A stretch of DNA of 64,000 nt, from the NCBI RefSeq assembly GCF_000337215.1, contig NZ_AOHZ01000082.1, positions 1 through 64,000 of the forward strand, written 5' to 3'. The DNA is from Natronolimnohabitans innermongolicus JCM 12255. Its GTDB lineage: Archaea; Halobacteriota; Halobacteria; Halobacteriales; Natrialbaceae. The notes below the pieces were generated by a model. That model had not been told where the DNA came from. It did not search any database and saw only the letters and a list, made by a program, of their open reading frames with translations. The position numbers and the translations under genes were made by a program. Shown in pieces: positions 28,665 through 35,809 of this stretch (the first letter of the stretch is position 1; every line of letters begins with the position of its first letter).

Positions 28665-28784
28665 ATGAGTGAATTCCGAGCCACAGACCGAGACCTTGAA
28701 CCTAACATGGGCACGGACACGAACGCCCTTGGCATCGTTCACCGATCAGAGTCGGGCGATCACGCGGGGGTGACTGTCCGGTGA
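28665..28784 (+). CDS. Possible 39-residue ORF coupled to the Bat-type gene
   Basis: A short frame starting MSEFRATDRDLEP and ending GDHAGVTVR. Its TGA overlaps the GTG of the next gene (a GTGA junction), the pattern of translational coupling. No TATA element at leaderless spacing and no family are visible, so it may be chance. The surrounding gap 28393-28664 shows no other gene. Confidence 0.25.
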   Translation: MSEFRATDRDLEPNMGTDTNALGIVHRSESGDHAGVTVR

Positions 28785-29461
28785 CCACGATCGCGGAACT
28801 CTCACTGTCCACCGCCGAGTTCGCCCTCGCGGAGACGTTCGACCGCCTCCCGGAACTCGAGGTCCGCGTCGAGAGCGTCGTCGCAGAAGGGCCGGCGCGG
28901 ACGGTCCCGCTCGTCTGGTTTACACACGCCGACCACGACGCGATCGAGGTAGCCCTCGAGGCGGATCCGACGGTCGCCGACTACCAGCGACTCCTCGAGA
29001 ACACCGACGAAGAGATGGAGTGGTTCTACCGACTCGAGTACGACGAAGACGTCAGCTCCGTTTGCCAGGCCGTCTACGCGAACGGCGGCACGCTCCTCGA
29101 CGCGCAGGTTGCCGACGACCAGTGGACGCTGCGGTTGCTCTTTCCCGAACGCGAGGAGCTCTCCGACGCCGTCTCGGCGATCGAAGACAGCAGCACTCGC
29201 GTCGACGTCCGACGAATGGTCGAGGCCGGACAGGACGAGGGGCTCGAGACGACGGCGGCGCTGACCGACCCCCAGCAGGAGGCGATCGCCGAGGCCTATC
29301 GCCAGGGTTACTACGACGTCCCCCGCGAAATCTCGCTCGAGGAACTCGCGAGCGAACTTGACATCTCCCATCAGGCGCTCTCCGAGCGCCTGCGACGAGC
29401 GAATCGGGTGCTCGCCAGCGAGCAGTTAGACGAGCCGGCAGGGGAACTGGCGACCGACTGA
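28781..29461 (+). CDS. Bacterio-opsin-activator-type HTH regulator
   Basis: A 226-residue transcription regulator of the haloarchaeal Bat family without the PAS/GAF part. The N-terminal ~150 residues form the conserved beta-rich domain (IAELSLSTAEFALAETF, LLDAQVADDQWTLRLLFP). The C-terminal HTH_10 domain begins LTDPQQEAIAEAYRQGYYDV and ends with LASELDISHQALSERLRRA. Such proteins control individual metabolic or stress genes. The start is GTG at 28781 and gives the usual family N-terminus. It is followed by the DapA-family gene 81 bp downstream on the same strand, a possible target. Confidence 0.88.
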   Translation: MTTIAELSLSTAEFALAETFDRLPELEVRVESVVAEGPARTVPLVWFTHADHDAIEVALEADPTVADYQRLLENTDEEMEWFYRLEYDEDVSSVCQAVYANGGTLLDAQVADDQWTLRLLFPEREELSDAVSAIEDSSTRVDVRRMVEAGQDEGLETTAALTDPQQEAIAEAYRQGYYDVPREISLEELASELDISHQALSERLRRANRVLASEQLDEPAGELATD

Positions 29462-30518: not shown

Positions 30519-31649
30519 CTAGAAGAGCGCCCGCGTCCGAACCTCTCCGGTGAGGATCAGCACGCGGCCGTCGGCGTCGATCGAGTAATCCTCGAGCGTG
30601 GCCCAATCGTCGCCGATGTCGCGGTTCCGCTCGACGTGTTCTTGCAGGGCGTCGCTGTCGGCTTCGCCCTCGCTCTCGTAGACGAAGACCTCGCAGATGT
30701 CGGTGGTGCTCCCGTCGACGTCCTGTGAGCGCGCCTGTCCGACGAGGCCGTACTCCCAGTCCTCGATCCTGTCTCTGATCGCTTCGCGCTCCTCCTCGCT
30801 CGCGTCGTCCGGATCGTCGTACTGATCCTCGAGTTCGTTCTCGACCGTCCGCGGCTGCGTGAGAATTCCGAATGCGGCGCCCCCGCTCTCGAGTTCCGAG
30901 AGCAGGAGTTCGCCGTCGTCGTCGTCGGTCCAGCGGTTCTGCTCGTCGTCCTTGGTGTCGATCGTCGACTCGACGAGCGAGACCGCGTCGATCAGTGCGG
31001 GCGCGTCGGTGGCGACCACGTAGTCGTCGCTGACGCCGAACGCGTAGTCCTCGACCGTGTAGAGGTCGAAGTCGCCCTGGCTCCCGGCGCTCTCGAAGCC
31101 GTCGTCGTCATCGTCATCGTCATCATCGTCGTCGAAATCGAACTCGTCGTCGACCCACCGCTCGAGCGCGTCTTCGACGTCGTCCGTGTCGAAGTCGCCG
31201 GCGAGCACCGTCGTGCTCCCCTCGGTCGTCCCGGATCCACCGTAGGAGAGATCGAACTCGTACTCCCAGTTCGCGCTCTGTTGAAGCGCCCAATCGATTT
31301 CGGACGCCGTCACACCCACCTTGCCACGGAGTTCACTGCCGCTCTCGAGTGGCGCGTACGTGTCGATATCGCTCTCGTTGTCGAAGATCATCTCGGGTTC
31401 GACGTACGAGAACATCCGAACTAGCTCCTCGGTCTCCTCGAGGTCGGCGTCGTCGTACTGCTCCTCGACCGTCTCGTCGTCGAGAACGTCTTCGAACGAG
31501 ACCGTCGTGAGCCACTGATCGACCTCGAAATCGCCGCTGCCGACGAAGGGGAGGCTGCTCGTACAGCCGGCAAGACCACCCATTCCGATCGCAAGTGCAC
31601 CCGCGCCACCGTTCCGAATAAACTGTCGTCTGCTATAGTCGCCAGACAT
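30519..31649 (-). CDS. Tat lipoprotein of unknown function
   Basis: A 376-residue exported protein with a twin-arginine motif SRRQF (residues 6-10) and lipobox LAGC (C29). The mature part has an alpha/beta-like pattern without a known catalytic motif. It contains an Asp run of about eleven residues near position 170 and a segment VEDYAFGVSDDYVVATDAPALI. Similar 'gas-vesicle-distant' haloarchaeal lipoproteins are annotated only as hypothetical. The ATG at 31649 (MSGDYSRRQF) is chosen over the frame start at 31673 because it gives a normal Tat signal length. It is convergent with the DapA-family gene. Confidence 0.72.
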   Translation of the reverse strand: MSGDYSRRQFIRNGGAGALAIGMGGLAGCTSSLPFVGSGDFEVDQWLTTVSFEDVLDDETVEEQYDDADLEETEELVRMFSYVEPEMIFDNESDIDTYAPLESGSELRGKVGVTASEIDWALQQSANWEYEFDLSYGGSGTTEGSTTVLAGDFDTDDVEDALERWVDDEFDFDDDDDDDDDDDGFESAGSQGDFDLYTVEDYAFGVSDDYVVATDAPALIDAVSLVESTIDTKDDEQNRWTDDDDGELLLSELESGGAAFGILTQPRTVENELEDQYDDPDDASEEEREAIRDRIEDWEYGLVGQARSQDVDGSTTDICEVFVYESEGEADSDALQEHVERNRDIGDDWATLEDYSIDADGRVLILTGEVRTRALF

Positions 31650-32132
31650 TACGCTACAAAGGAAAGTAACCACAGTTAACAGCTTCGGTTCGGATGCTTC
31701 TCGCGGTCGGTTTCAGTGCGCTGAGCCGTGTTACGAAGTCTACACCGAACTGTTCCTGAACAGTGGCCACAATCACTATATATTGTTACACGTCTGCAGC
31801 CAGCCGTCGGTCTGCTCCGACGACAGTGCACAACAGTCGGGACCCGTCGCGCAGTGTCCCCCGCTTCCGGTTCCCTCACGGCGACGGCCTGTCACAGACA
31901 GGTTCTCGCCGAGCTGGGACGCGAACGCGGGCCATCGCTTGCAAACACAGTCGCGACCAGGCAATCAACAGGGTGCACTCGAGGCGACGATCACGACGTC
32001 CGTCGTCAGCGAAATCGTACCGGGCGGGTCGACTGAGACGATTGGAACGCTAGCAGCGACCGAACACCATGCCACTCGCAGGCATACCGTTTATCGAGAT
32101 ACCTGTGATAACACGAGTACTACGGAGTAACG
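31650..32132. other. Intergenic region with palindrome and TATA-like box
   Basis: About 480 bp between divergent genes. It holds a perfect palindrome ACTGTTC-CT-GAACAGT (31749-31764), directly followed by a TATA-like CACTATATATT (31773-31783). No gene begins at the matching distance on either strand. Open frames in the region have no recognisable features. A second TTTATC box at about 32091 probably serves the ferredoxin gene. Confidence 0.4.
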
Positions 32133-32189
32133 ATGGATACCGATCGCAATCAGTCTCAGTCGGCCGTATCCGGTGGTGAGGCGTGGTGA
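32133..32189 (+). other. 18-codon ORF overlapping the ferredoxin start
   Basis: An ATG with a GGAG sequence 9 bp upstream opens MDTDRNQSQSAVSGGEAW and stops at 32187-32189, overlapping the GTG at 32183 in another frame. It could be a leader peptide, or the real N-terminus joined to the main frame by a frameshift (biological or assembly error). Confidence 0.35.
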
Positions 32190-33823
32190 CTTTCGACGAC
32201 GGGCGGGACGATGACGAGACGTTCCATCCGCTCGGCGAGCAGTGGCAAGACGACCTCGAGGAAGCGCTCGAGGACACGGAGTACGACGCGGATCTCGGGA
32301 TGGAGATGGCCAAAGACGCCATGCGCGTCACCAAGGGCGAACTCTCCGAGGAGACGTTCAACGAGCGCTACCGCGACGACGTCCTCGAGGAGTTCGGCGA
32401 GGACGGAGAGGCGCTCGCCGAAGAGATGGAGTCGAAAGACGGCGGCTACGTGGAAGGGGCGCTTTCCGCGGTCGGGGCTGGGGAGGATTCCCGCCGCGAC
32501 GTCATGAAGAAGATGGGTGGCGCCGGTGCGGTGGGCCTCGGCGCCTGGGGCGCGGCCGGCGGGAACGATGGTCCCTCGAGTCCCGTCCCCGCACAGGACG
32601 ACCAACAGGAAGCCGACGAACCCGACGACGCGAACGGCGAGGGGACGCAGTACGGGATGACCCTCGACCTCGAGCACTGTGACGGCTGTCTCTCCTGTGT
32701 CGTCGCCTGTGCCGAAGAGCACGACTGGGATCAGGGAGCGAACTGGATGTACGTACTTGCCTACGAGGACGACACCGTTAGCTCCCCGCCTGCCGACGAT
32801 TTCGACTCGACGGAGGATTTCGAGTACCTGATCCGGCCGTGTCAACACTGTACCGACGCGCCCTGTGAGAAAGTCTGTCCGACGACGGCGCGGCACACGC
32901 GCGACTCGGACGGACTCGTGTTGACCGACTACGACGTCTGTATCGGCTGTCGGTACTGTCAGGTCGCCTGTCCCTACGGCGTCAACTACTTCCAGTGGGA
33001 AGAGCCGGAAGTCGGGGAGGACGAACTCGACGAAGACCACATGTACGACGTGCGAGACCGGCCAGTCAGCGCGCGCGGACCGCGAGGAGTCATGGAGAAG
33101 TGTACGTTCTGTCCGACGCGAAACGACGGCAGTCTCGGCGAAGAAATGGTCGGCACGACCGCCTGCGAGGACGCTTGTCCGCCCGAAGTAATCCAGTTCG
33201 GTAATATGAACGATCCGAACAGTGATCCGCAGCGGTACAATAACAACACCGCCAAGAGTCGGACGCTCGTTCGGACGGCCGGCAACCTCCCGTCGCTCGA
33301 GGAGTTCGAGGAAACGATCGACGGCGAAGACGAAGAGATAGATGCCGTCATCGACGCCGTCGAAGACCTCGACGAGGAGATGGTTGGACTGCTGTTGGCC
33401 ATCTACATCGTCGGCGAAGACGGCGAACCGGAGGGCGACGAGAGCAGTTCTCTCGCCGAGCAGGAAGCCGAGGCGATGGAGTACGTCGAGGCGCTCGCCG
33501 ACCACGGGATCGACCTCGAGGACGAGGATCTGCTCCTCGAGTTCGACCTCGCCGAAGAACCGGACGACGACGAGGAGTTCGACGGTGCGAGCGAAGACCT
33601 CGCTCAGGAAGTCCTCGACGACTTCGCGGGCGACGTCGAGTCTCGGTTCAAGCTCCTCGAGGACGTCGGGACGGATCCAAACATCATCTACCTCGGTAAC
33701 GAACCGGGTCCGGACGCCGAACAGGTCGAAGGACCGGTTGCCTACGACAGCGTCGATCAGACGGACAACCGCAAGGACGTTCTCGACGAAGGCACCGTCG
33801 GTCCGGACGGCCCTTCCATCTGA
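32183..33823 (+). CDS. Four-cluster ferredoxin subunit (DmsB/PsrB/NrfC-type)
   Basis: A 546-residue iron-sulfur protein of the DMSO-reductase electron-transfer class. Sixteen cysteines form four [4Fe-4S] sites: C166/169/172/176, C220/223/228/232, C253/256/259/263 and C307/310/328/332. The N-terminal 100 residues are acidic and helical (HPLGEQWQDDLEEALE). A twin-arginine-like motif SRRDVMKKMGG with a Gly/Ala stretch sits internally at residues 103-121, so export, if any, would need an unusual long n-region. The C-terminal 190 residues are acidic and lack cysteines. No molybdopterin subunit or NrfD-type membrane anchor lies nearby, so its partner is unknown. The GTG start is uncertain because of the overlapping short ORF. 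Confidence 0.85.
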   Translation: MVTFDDGRDDDETFHPLGEQWQDDLEEALEDTEYDADLGMEMAKDAMRVTKGELSEETFNERYRDDVLEEFGEDGEALAEEMESKDGGYVEGALSAVGAGEDSRRDVMKKMGGAGAVGLGAWGAAGGNDGPSSPVPAQDDQQEADEPDDANGEGTQYGMTLDLEHCDGCLSCVVACAEEHDWDQGANWMYVLAYEDDTVSSPPADDFDSTEDFEYLIRPCQHCTDAPCEKVCPTTARHTRDSDGLVLTDYDVCIGCRYCQVACPYGVNYFQWEEPEVGEDELDEDHMYDVRDRPVSARGPRGVMEKCTFCPTRNDGSLGEEMVGTTACEDACPPEVIQFGNMNDPNSDPQRYNNNTAKSRTLVRTAGNLPSLEEFEETIDGEDEEIDAVIDAVEDLDEEMVGLLLAIYIVGEDGEPEGDESSSLAEQEAEAMEYVEALADHGIDLEDEDLLLEFDLAEEPDDDEEFDGASEDLAQEVLDDFAGDVESRFKLLEDVGTDPNIIYLGNEPGPDAEQVEGPVAYDSVDQTDNRKDVLDEGTVGPDGPSI

Positions 33824-33968: not shown

Positions 33969-34172
33969 ATGGACATGCGTCAGCGGGTCATCGTCGCCGC
34001 GCTCTGGATCGGCGTCGCGGCACTGATGGCTATCACGCTCGAGCCGGGAGTACCGTCGGACGCGGGCGAAATCGCACGGCTGTTCGTCGTCGTCGTCGCG
34101 CTCTTTCTCGCCGGCGTCTATCTGCTCGATCCGAAGGGTGTCGTTACGCAGTTTTCGGATCAGAAACAGTAG
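33969..34172 (+). CDS. Small two-helix membrane protein
   Basis: A 67-residue protein starting MDMRQRVIVAALWIG, with two hydrophobic helices (about 7-24 and 37-54) separated by a short acidic loop and a polar tail VTQFSDQKQ. Family and function are unknown. The last 25 bp of the gene are duplicated in tandem directly after its stop codon (34173-34197). It is convergent with the isopropylmalate-synthase-like gene, 59 bp away. Confidence 0.6.
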   Translation: MDMRQRVIVAALWIGVAALMAITLEPGVPSDAGEIARLFVVVVALFLAGVYLLDPKGVVTQFSDQKQ

Positions 34173-34231: not shown

Positions 34232-35809
34232 TCAGTCGTCGGCCGGCGCGAGCGGCTGCTGGTCGGCCGCGAGCAGTCGATCGAGGGCGTCGACCATCGC
34301 CTCGACGCTGGCGCGGGTGATGTCGGCCTCGCTTCGCGCGACGGTGACCGAGCGATCGTTGCGGACCATCGTCACCTCGACCGTGACGACGGCGTCCGTG
34401 CCGCCGGTGACGGCGTCGACGTGGTAGGAGTCGAGTTCGGCGTCGGCCATCGAACCGAGCGCCTCGCGGACCGCCGAAACCGCCGCGTCGACGGGACCAG
34501 AGCCGGTGCCGCTGGCGACGCGTTCCTCGCCGCCGACCTCGAGGCGAATGCTCGCCGTCGGAACCGGCCCGCCGCTGGTCGCGTTGAGATCGAGCAGGTC
34601 GACGACGCGTTCGCGGTCGTCGCCGGTGACGTCCTCCGCGATCGCCAGCAGGTCGGCGTCGGTCACGCGGCGTCCGCGGTCGCCCAGTTCCGTGACGCGC
34701 GTCGCGATCTCGGCGATTTCCTCGTCGGACGCCTCGACGTTGTGCTCCTCGAGGGTCGCCTTGACGCCCGCGCGGCCCGTGTGCTTGCCGAGGGCGAGTC
34801 GGCGCTCGCGGCCGACCGTCTCGGGCGCGTAGGGCTCGTACATCTTGTCGTCCTTCAGCGTCCCGTCGGTGTGGATGCCGCTCTCGTGGGTGAAGGCGTT
34901 CTCGCCGATGACGGCTTTGTTCGGCGCCAGCTGAACTCCCGTCGCCCGGGAAACGAGCTGTGCGAGGTCGTAGAGCTGCTCGAGTTCGAGCGTCTCGACG
35001 TCGTAGACGTGTGAGAGCGCGATTGCGACCTCCTCCAGGGCGACGTTGCCGGCGCGCTCGCCTAAGCCGTTTACCGTACAGTGGACGAGGTCGGCGCCCG
35101 CGGAGACCGCGGAGAGGGCGTTCGCGACGCCCAGCCCCAGATCGTCGTGGGTGTGTGCGCTGACCGGCCCGATCTCCGCGAGTCGGGAGACCGCCTCGGC
35201 GGTACGCTCCGGGCCCGTGTGGCCGACGGTGTCGGCGAAACAGAGCCGATCGGCGCCGGCGTCCGCGGCCGTCGCCATCAGCTCTTCGAGGTAGTCCAGA
35301 TCCGCGCGCGAGCCGTCCTCGCCGATGACCTCGACCCAGAGGCCGTGGTCGGTCGCGTACTCGACGAGTTCGGCCGTCGTCGCGAGGTTGTCCTCGCGGG
35401 AAGTGCCGACCTTCCCCTCGACGTGACGGTCGCTCGAGGGAACGACGATGTGGACGCCGTCGACGTCACACTCGAGTGCGAGGTCGACGTCGGACGTCAT
35501 CCCGCGACAGAAACTCGTCACGAGGGCGTCGAGATCGAGGTCGGTCACCCTCGAGATGGCCTGGCGCTCGCCGGCGCCGGTACAGGCGCTGCCCGCCTCG
35601 ATGACGGCGACGCCCGCGCGCTCGAGGCCGCGAGCGATCTCGACCTTTTCGTCGGGCGACAGCGAGACGCCGGGGGCTTGCTCGCCGTCGCGAAGGGTGG
35701 TATCGAGAAGGCGGACTGTACGGTCTGGTGCGATCGTGTCGGCGGCGGAGTGAGTCACAGGTAGAAGCGAATCGGTTGGTGTAGCAGGCTGTTCATCGGA
35801 GAATTTCAC
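34232..35809 (-). CDS. 2-isopropylmalate / (R)-citramalate synthase family enzyme
   Basis: A 525-residue DRE-TIM metallolyase that condenses acetyl-CoA with a 2-oxoacid, for leucine (isopropylmalate) or isoleucine (citramalate) synthesis. The catalytic motif LLDTTLRDGEQAPG covers residues 34-47 (R40, D41), metal-binding HTHDD is near residue 223, and NGLGERAGN follows. The last ~125 residues form the LeuA-type regulatory domain for feedback inhibition. It stands alone, away from leuBCD or ilvBNC genes, which mildly favours the citramalate branch; active-site residues do not decide it. The GTG at 35809 is the longest start. The first 30 residues are non-conserved, so a later start is possible. 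Confidence 0.85.
   Translation of the reverse strand: MKFSDEQPATPTDSLLPVTHSAADTIAPDRTVRLLDTTLRDGEQAPGVSLSPDEKVEIARGLERAGVAVIEAGSACTGAGERQAISRVTDLDLDALVTSFCRGMTSDVDLALECDVDGVHIVVPSSDRHVEGKVGTSREDNLATTAELVEYATDHGLWVEVIGEDGSRADLDYLEELMATAADAGADRLCFADTVGHTGPERTAEAVSRLAEIGPVSAHTHDDLGLGVANALSAVSAGADLVHCTVNGLGERAGNVALEEVAIALSHVYDVETLELEQLYDLAQLVSRATGVQLAPNKAVIGENAFTHESGIHTDGTLKDDKMYEPYAPETVGRERRLALGKHTGRAGVKATLEEHNVEASDEEIAEIATRVTELGDRGRRVTDADLLAIAEDVTGDDRERVVDLLDLNATSGGPVPTASIRLEVGGEERVASGTGSGPVDAAVSAVREALGSMADAELDSYHVDAVTGGTDAVVTVEVTMVRNDRSVTVARSEADITRASVEAMVDALDRLLAADQQPLAPADD

Follow-up and report, generated by a model that had tools for sequence, protein, structure and literature searches.

The window, that is, the whole stretch of 64,000 nucleotides analysed here, carries a gene whose product is probably (we would put it near 0.6, judging from its sequence and that of its relatives) the exported four-cluster iron-sulfur subunit of a quinol-oxidising complex with an NrfD membrane subunit, which would replace the cytochrome bc complex. 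At the level of sequence, several features of this protein and its relatives (FN-FeS proteins, from their Ferredoxin_N or FN domain) can be considered firm: the order FN, Tat motif, Fe-S domain; the internal twin arginine (RR); the three arrangements in which FN occurs; a recurrent leader ORF; the orphan NrfD gene; and a distribution complementary to that of cytochrome b. From these we infer how FN would act, the pairing with the orphan NrfD, a quinol:halocyanin or quinol:HiPIP activity, and a role as complex III. For a more complete proposal we consider the odds about even: FN-FeS and NrfD would form the complex III of haloarchaea without a bc complex, a menaquinol:halocyanin/HiPIP oxidoreductase without a separate catalytic subunit, FN would be an archaeal maturation module for Tat export acting in cis or in trans, and the window copy would be coupled via a micro-ORF. 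A literature search that covered titles and the opening lines of abstracts, with subscription journals largely outside it, returned no proposal of FN-FeS/NrfD as complex III. The distribution and the neighbouring genes give concrete candidate genes for the step from quinol to halocyanin in bc-less haloarchaea; if the proposal is true, aerobic archaea have swapped the bc complex for an NrfD module in several lineages.

The petABC genes are described as absent in about a third of the haloarchaea, especially the Natrialbales, where the electron path is unresolved (PMC8305020, in the part of the article used here), and the same gap is described for Natrialba magadii, Haloterrigena turkmenica and Natronomonas pharaonis (PMC3403918, likewise from part of the text). 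In one sample of 391 haloarchaeal genomes, cytochrome b (PF00033) was detected in 292 and the NrfD of the operons, used as query, in 137. NrfD was found in 96 of the 99 cytochrome-b-negative genomes versus 41 of the 292 positive ones (Fisher p = 7e-54; this and the following p-values are too small, because related genomes are not independent); 41 genomes have both, 251 cytochrome b only, 96 NrfD only and 3 neither. Nine cytochrome b matches are weak (E 1e-26 to 1e-31) and none of those genomes has NrfD; when these nine are counted as absent, NrfD is present in 96 of 108 negatives (p = 3e-44). Within the family to which the window belongs, all 80 cytochrome-b-negative genomes have NrfD and all 10 NrfD-less genomes have cytochrome b (p = 2e-8). 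The pattern recurs in the genera g58 and g74 and in the families f9 and f10. In the genome of the window itself, the PF00033 search gave no cytochrome b match.

The window gene lies in a 546-codon ORF on the forward strand (32183-33823, the stop ending at 33823), bounded by an in-frame TGA one codon 5' of the first GTG; the GTGs at 32183 and 32186 are the sole starts upstream of residue 40, and the second is the more likely one (Table 1). Gene calls in the window and in the other loci were made with a codon-score script. The match to PF16947 (residues 15-74, E = 1.2e-28, 99.4 bits versus a curated cut-off of 25) is followed by Fer4 domains, and the four-cluster ferredoxin subunit recognised in the first-pass annotation was borne out by 16 Cys in four groups (residues 166-176, 220-232, 253-263 and 307-332), which would ligate four [4Fe-4S] clusters. 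Sequence and fold comparison gave ArrB, the C-terminal part of ActB, and PsrB as solved relatives of this domain, ArrB and ActB being the closest. DsrO and QrcC, the top NCBIfam matches, are both far under their cut-offs (for the DsrO equivalog NF045797, 126.9 bits versus a curated 200), and in Pfam the protein has FN and iron-sulfur binding domains only, with no MopB-like domain. In the AlphaFold model FN forms three helices (block pLDDT about 77-91), residues 87-152, which carry the Tat motif, are disordered (pLDDT <50), and the Fe-S core comes next. The model of a stand-alone FN likewise has three helices, at modest confidence (mean pLDDT 72), and for this fold the PDB gave no significant match by sequence search or Foldseek. 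Shorter homologues lack much of the acidic helical insert, and an element similar to the TATA-like TTTATC aligns in loci L031-L034.

Table 1. Features of the window gene and its surroundings.
Feature	Position	Strand	Basis or remark
TATA-like TTTATC, 43 nt 5' of the leader ATG	32090..32095	+	Read in the sequence; putative role
Leader ORF, 18 codons (MDTDRNQSQSAVSGGEAW, stop TGA)	32133..32189	+	Overlaps the main start as GTGA
Shine-Dalgarno-like GGTGAGG within the leader ORF, ahead of GTG 32186	32175..32181	+	Sequence
FN-FeS subunit gene	32186..33823	+	First possible GTG at 32183
Ferredoxin_N domain (FN), PF16947, residues 15-74	32225..32404	+	Pfam; predicted three-helix, model
Internal twin-arginine signal SRRDVMKKMGGAGAVGLGAWGAAG, residues 103-126	32489..32560	+	Sequence; homologues
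Four-cluster [4Fe-4S] domain (predicted), 16 Cys	32651..33205	+	Related to ArrB, C-terminal part of ActB, PsrB
Acidic helical insert near the C-terminus, residues about 355-482	33245..33628	+	Model, pLDDT mostly >90
67-aa two-TM protein after the FN-FeS gene	33969..34172	+	Relatives in 36 of 56 homologue rows without nearby NrfD

The motif SRRDVMKKMGG is internal, as it had been described at first, with its RR at residues 104-105; the stretch before it is acidic but does not consist of 100 acidic residues, since the first 100 positions include 34 D/E and 7 K/R. By eye there is no signal at the true N-terminus, in agreement with the initial description. The RR precedes the first cluster in all 86 homologues picked by similarity alone, and stands between FN and the first cluster in 41/41 homologues of an earlier set; it is also invariant in a 48-row alignment, partly by construction because the rows were selected for a detected RR signal. 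The unusual topology that had been considered is a property of the family, in which Ferredoxin_N stands before an internal Tat motif. Among the 49 proteins of class B (defined below) the RR falls at residue 77-133 (median 103), and a lipobox comes after it in three (L060, L066, L182), as it also does in L252, a protein from a Natronomonas MAG. A conserved RR followed by an uncharged stretch, the features by which we recognise a Tat substrate, is what was found, and the window protein would be a Tat-exported, electron-carrying Fe-S subunit.

FN occurs in three ARRANGEMENTS, into which we sorted 99 FN genes at 97 loci, a non-random set drawn from search listings. In class B (49 genes) FN is fused to an Fe-S subunit with its own Tat motif behind FN, and downstream of many of these genes come NrfD, a small 2-TM protein and an Mrp/NUBPL-type Fe-S ATPase; L182, labelled a Mo protein by its profile, was counted here and the label treated as an error, while L057 belongs to the 41-homologue set and the 86-row tree and lies outside the 99. 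In class C (11 genes) FN is fused to a Tat-less Fe-S subunit, in an operon with NrfD, a Tat-bearing Mo subunit and TorD. In class A (39 genes) FN is a separate gene of 59-87 aa, located in every case upstream of a Tat-bearing ORF (38 Mo subunits and one part of a split Mo subunit). The spacing to the next gene, scored in 37 of these after excluding the two outer copies of tandem FN pairs, is an 8-nt overlap in 29, a 4-nt overlap in 4 and a gap of 0-2 nt in 4. In the two tandem pairs (L145:8920-9459 and L165:15567-16109), two different stand-alone FN genes precede one Mo subunit. A Halorubrum plasmid annotated by PGAP, apparently the L111 record, has the class-A layout too.

Fused and separate FN are homologous (profile comparison, probability 99.8%). 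PF16947 matched in 197 of the 391 genomes examined from the class and in 27 of 294 genomes sampled across the phylum, all 27 from the order of the window; among 14 control genomes it was present in one, Haloferax volcanii. When named genomes were scanned with one FN protein, Cellulosimicrobium also matched, over 24 residues (E = 5e-5), probably by chance. TorD accompanies the Mo subunits of FN operons, and FN occurs also where no Mo subunit was seen. The three arrangements suggest that FN works before export, and it is not strictly tied to Tat, because the 11 class-C proteins have FN without a Tat motif. If the proposal is true, FN would represent a new kind of Tat maturation domain, known in fused, separate and Tat-less arrangements.

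In agreement with the first-pass annotation, no catalytic partner gene adjoins the window gene; nor does an NrfD gene. The sole follower on the same strand is the 67-aa two-TM ORF, for which no Pfam family scored above cut-off. The genome has two NrfD genes (PF03916), one in a paralogous operon on contig C2 and a lone orphan on contig C75, and the latter is likely the membrane partner of the window protein. Matches to the window protein at E<=0.001 were obtained in 53 of 61 related genomes, counting those to the Fe-S part only; the orthologues L198 and L200 have one in-frame TGA inside the match and are decayed copies or contain sequence errors. In 86 FN-FeS rows, NrfD is just downstream in 30, the 2-TM gene in 36 and neither in 20, and in a tree of these proteins (quick method, midpoint root, some forks weak) the NrfD-less rows near the window gene nest among NrfD-linked ones. 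The 30 loci that best match the orphan NrfD have no FN-FeS gene within flanks of about 1.5 kb, and their NrfDs form one clade versus 24 operon NrfDs (support 100/99), an outcome favoured by the choice of these loci as best matches to the orphan of this genome. In-frame stops in orphan NrfDs were treated as an alignment artefact: upon re-alignment of the seven flagged loci, four had them at the extreme C-terminal end only and three had none. In the family of the window, FN-FeS (E<=1e-60) and NrfD are each present in 114 of 125 genomes and the same 11 lack both; the number of copies per genome is equal in 93 of the 114 and differs in 21. Four genomes of genus g12 with two FN-FeS genes and one NrfD count against the pairing.

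The genes that adjoin some FN-FeS loci include candidate electron acceptors. In 6 of the 49 class-B loci the gene immediately upstream of FN-FeS is halocyanin-like (PF00127), its product showing a Tat motif and a lipobox by eye; at the 39 class-A and 11 class-C loci no such gene occurs within four genes of FN. In Halomontanus rarus, an annotated halocyanin is directly upstream of FN-FeS. The sole three HiPIP matches among 1158 called proteins are from divergent genes adjoining FN-FeS (L047, L295, L298), and in Halostagnicola larsenii a HiPIP gene (barely over the Pfam HIPIP cut-off) is two genes upstream. Genes for cytochrome oxidase stand alongside FN-FeS at L295 and L298. Halocyanin or HiPIP adjoins a minority of the loci, and near the window gene neither was noticed, which we count against the complex-III reading.

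Other neighbours are recorded as observations. In the window, the gene adjoining FN-FeS at 30519-31673 (-) encodes a protein with RR, a lipobox-like motif and an Asp run, with no Pfam match and with a relative in the same place in L032. An HTH_10/BAT regulator with a DmsR_N-like domain is encoded at 28781-29461 (+); many NrfD-linked loci have a member of this family a short way upstream of FN-FeS, but in the window it is farther off. At 34232-35758 (-) there is a LeuA/HMGL-type synthase, kept next to the NrfD-less FN-FeS gene in several genera.

At the start of the window gene, the overlap with an 18-codon ORF that has its own ATG and GGAG was readily seen: GGAG stands 5' of the leader ATG, and the TGA of the leader overlaps the second GTG as GTGA. 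Similar Shine-Dalgarno (SD)-like motifs precede the main start in many relatives. In the NrfD-less subclade to which the window gene belongs, a leader is present in 43 of 51 usable rows (ATG 28-60 nt upstream, end at -2 to +8 relative to the main start; mostly ATG at -53, -50, -47 or -44, all in one frame), and in 8 of 29 NrfD-linked relatives; rows without a start were dropped (2 of 53 and 1 of 30, respectively), and L193, L196 and L047, for which the leader script chose a start that differs from the other assignment, were kept as scored. Among control genes (other genes of the window and of sampled relative loci with >=120 nt upstream) a leader was found in 12 of 248, and in 11 of 96 when restricted to NTGA starts. 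Conservation of the leader as a peptide is not supported: in close pairs (13 of 18 chosen were usable, one locus twice, last codons excluded) the differences at codon positions 1, 2 and 3 were 19, 24 and 28, with no clear third-position bias and, for this reason, no clear selection on the peptide.

A stop/start overlap with an SD inside the upstream ORF is the arrangement expected of termination-reinitiation, which is the simplest reading, and the leader probably serves for translational coupling of the main gene. In Haloferax the SD is not used to initiate at 5'-UTRs (PMC3986360, as far as the portion consulted goes), and translation is coupled in overlapping gene pairs of Haloferax volcanii, the SD contributing to a variable extent (PMC6728339, in part). 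The first-pass annotation had offered, as a possible origin of the real N-terminus, the leader fused to the protein through a frameshift; this was rejected, given that orthologues start near the codon equivalent to GTG 32186 and conserve the leader in another frame. Among the outcomes that would speak against it, it had named orthologues that begin exactly at the GTG and lack the motif; half of this was found, as they begin at the equivalent codon but retain the motif. The long N-terminus is therefore genuine and a frameshift unneeded, because orthologues start near the equivalent codon and the RR is family-wide.

The proposed sequence of events would be as follows. Ribosomes would initiate at the leader ATG, terminate at the UGA that overlaps the main GTG, and then reinitiate with the help of the internal SD. 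FN, in the cytoplasm, would act as a maturation or quality-control domain that retains the Tat signal until the clusters are inserted; encoded as a separate gene, it would perform the same task for Tat-bearing molybdoenzyme subunits. The folded protein would then leave via Tat, with FN either cleaved off or kept on the cytoplasmic side, and outside the membrane the Fe-S subunit would dock on the orphan NrfD and accept electrons from menaquinol. These would pass to halocyanin or HiPIP and on to the terminal oxidases, in place of the missing bc complex.

The main competitor of this scheme, which we regard as unlikely though still to be reckoned with, is that FN-FeS/NrfD would be an ordinary reductase or dehydrogenase module (PsrBC-, DmsBC- or ArrB-like) with its catalytic subunit encoded elsewhere, the complementarity with cytochrome b reflecting lineage. 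The Fe-S domain is indeed akin to ArrB and PsrB, FN is also found in operons with a Mo subunit, and the genome of the window encodes three proteins with a Molybdopterin domain; upstream of one operon there is, moreover, an EB_dh-domain protein with RR (L054:10977-12575, directly upstream of a class-B operon), perhaps an electron carrier or a catalytic subunit. However, a Mo subunit is listed in one of 49 class-B operons (L049), and there it is first trailed by a different Fe-S gene and TorD. As for lineage, the complementarity holds outside the family of the window (NrfD in 16 of 19 cytochrome-b-negative versus 30 of 271 positive genomes, p = 9e-12, with the same reservation on relatedness) and inside genus g58 (6 of 6 listed negatives versus 1 of 5 positives); the halocyanin, HiPIP and oxidase neighbours indicate aerobic respiration. 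Against the scheme proposed here, genomes without bc could also be relying on quinol oxidases.

Doubts of a different kind concern the parts of the protein. That FN serves structurally, as a subunit of the exported complex, and not as a cytoplasmic maturation domain, is doubtful, if somewhat less so than the previous alternative: in class C it stays attached to an Fe-S subunit that has no Tat motif itself, yet in class B it is located on the side of the signal expected to be cytoplasmic, and cleavage at a lipobox, if present, would remove it, and stand-alone FN has no signal by eye. Very improbable, in our judgement, is that the internal RR is unused for export, the protein being cytoplasmic and the motif a structural remnant. 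In its favour, about 100 residues separate the start from the RR, the hydrophobicity of the h-region is weak, the lipobox is confined to three of the 49 class-B proteins and the RR signal was recognised by a criterion of our own; against this stand its presence in every one of the 86 rows, the four members with a lipobox Cys after it, the 11 of 11 operons with a Tat-bearing Mo subunit in which the FN-fused Fe-S subunit has no RR signal, and three bacterial TAT-variant ActB-like proteins in which the RR is likewise some 50-70 residues in. An untranslated leader ORF, arising by chance from ATGA starts, is also improbable, to a lesser degree; NTGA starts are common and supply a free stop, and the peptide is not clearly conserved, but the control genes with NTGA starts have a leader far less often than the NrfD-less subclade, and in six rows with a shifted frame (L204, L211, L212, L216, L217, L230) the end is still kept at +5 or +8.

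Several known systems resemble parts of the one proposed here. The reinitiation pairs of Haloferax volcanii (PMC6728339, from the section used above) share with the leader and FN-FeS a stop/start overlap and an SD inside the upstream ORF; they differ in that the upstream ORF of FN-FeS has about 12-18 codons and a product that is not clearly conserved. In haloarchaeal operons of the dmsREABCD type (a name taken from the part of PMC1447603 consulted), a stand-alone FN occupies, by position, the slot of dmsE, with an HTH regulator on one side and the catalytic subunit on the other; in contrast with FN-FeS, FN is separate there and it is the Mo subunit that bears the Tat signal. With cytochrome bc/b6f (petABC), FN-FeS/NrfD would share the role of passing electrons from quinol to halocyanin, whereas the protein families are others and the distribution is complementary. 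QrcC/QrcD and DsrO/DsrP also combine a four-cluster subunit with an NrfD-type membrane partner (PMC8076601, in the part seen); the window protein differs from them by its scores (126.8 versus a cut-off of 400 for QrcC, 126.9 versus 200 for DsrO), and no QrcAB or DsrMKJ partners were noticed in FN-FeS loci.

The alternative complex III (ActABCDEF) likewise contains an NrfD-type subunit with the quinol site and a four-cluster Fe-S module, a pairing that would apply here as well, and ActB-like TAT-variant proteins share with FN-FeS a Tat motif behind an N-terminal extension. No homology between FN and this bacterial extension was found: in a profile comparison with three bacterial proteins only the RR stretch aligns; the bacterial extended Tat domain is, we take it, the one named TIGR04519, and the window protein has no NCBIfam match of that kind. 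The FN-FeS Fe-S subunit is missing the MopB-like domain, and is for that reason not a member of the alternative complex III; no pentaheme gene was noticed beside FN-FeS and no multiheme gene among its neighbours, the candidate acceptor genes being those for halocyanin or HiPIP. The proposed reaction is nonetheless shared, with quinol as donor and a small one-electron carrier as acceptor, which for the alternative complex III is cytochrome c or HiPIP (PMC8076601, same part), and the sequences suggest that FN-FeS/NrfD would work like the core of the alternative complex III or of QrcCD.
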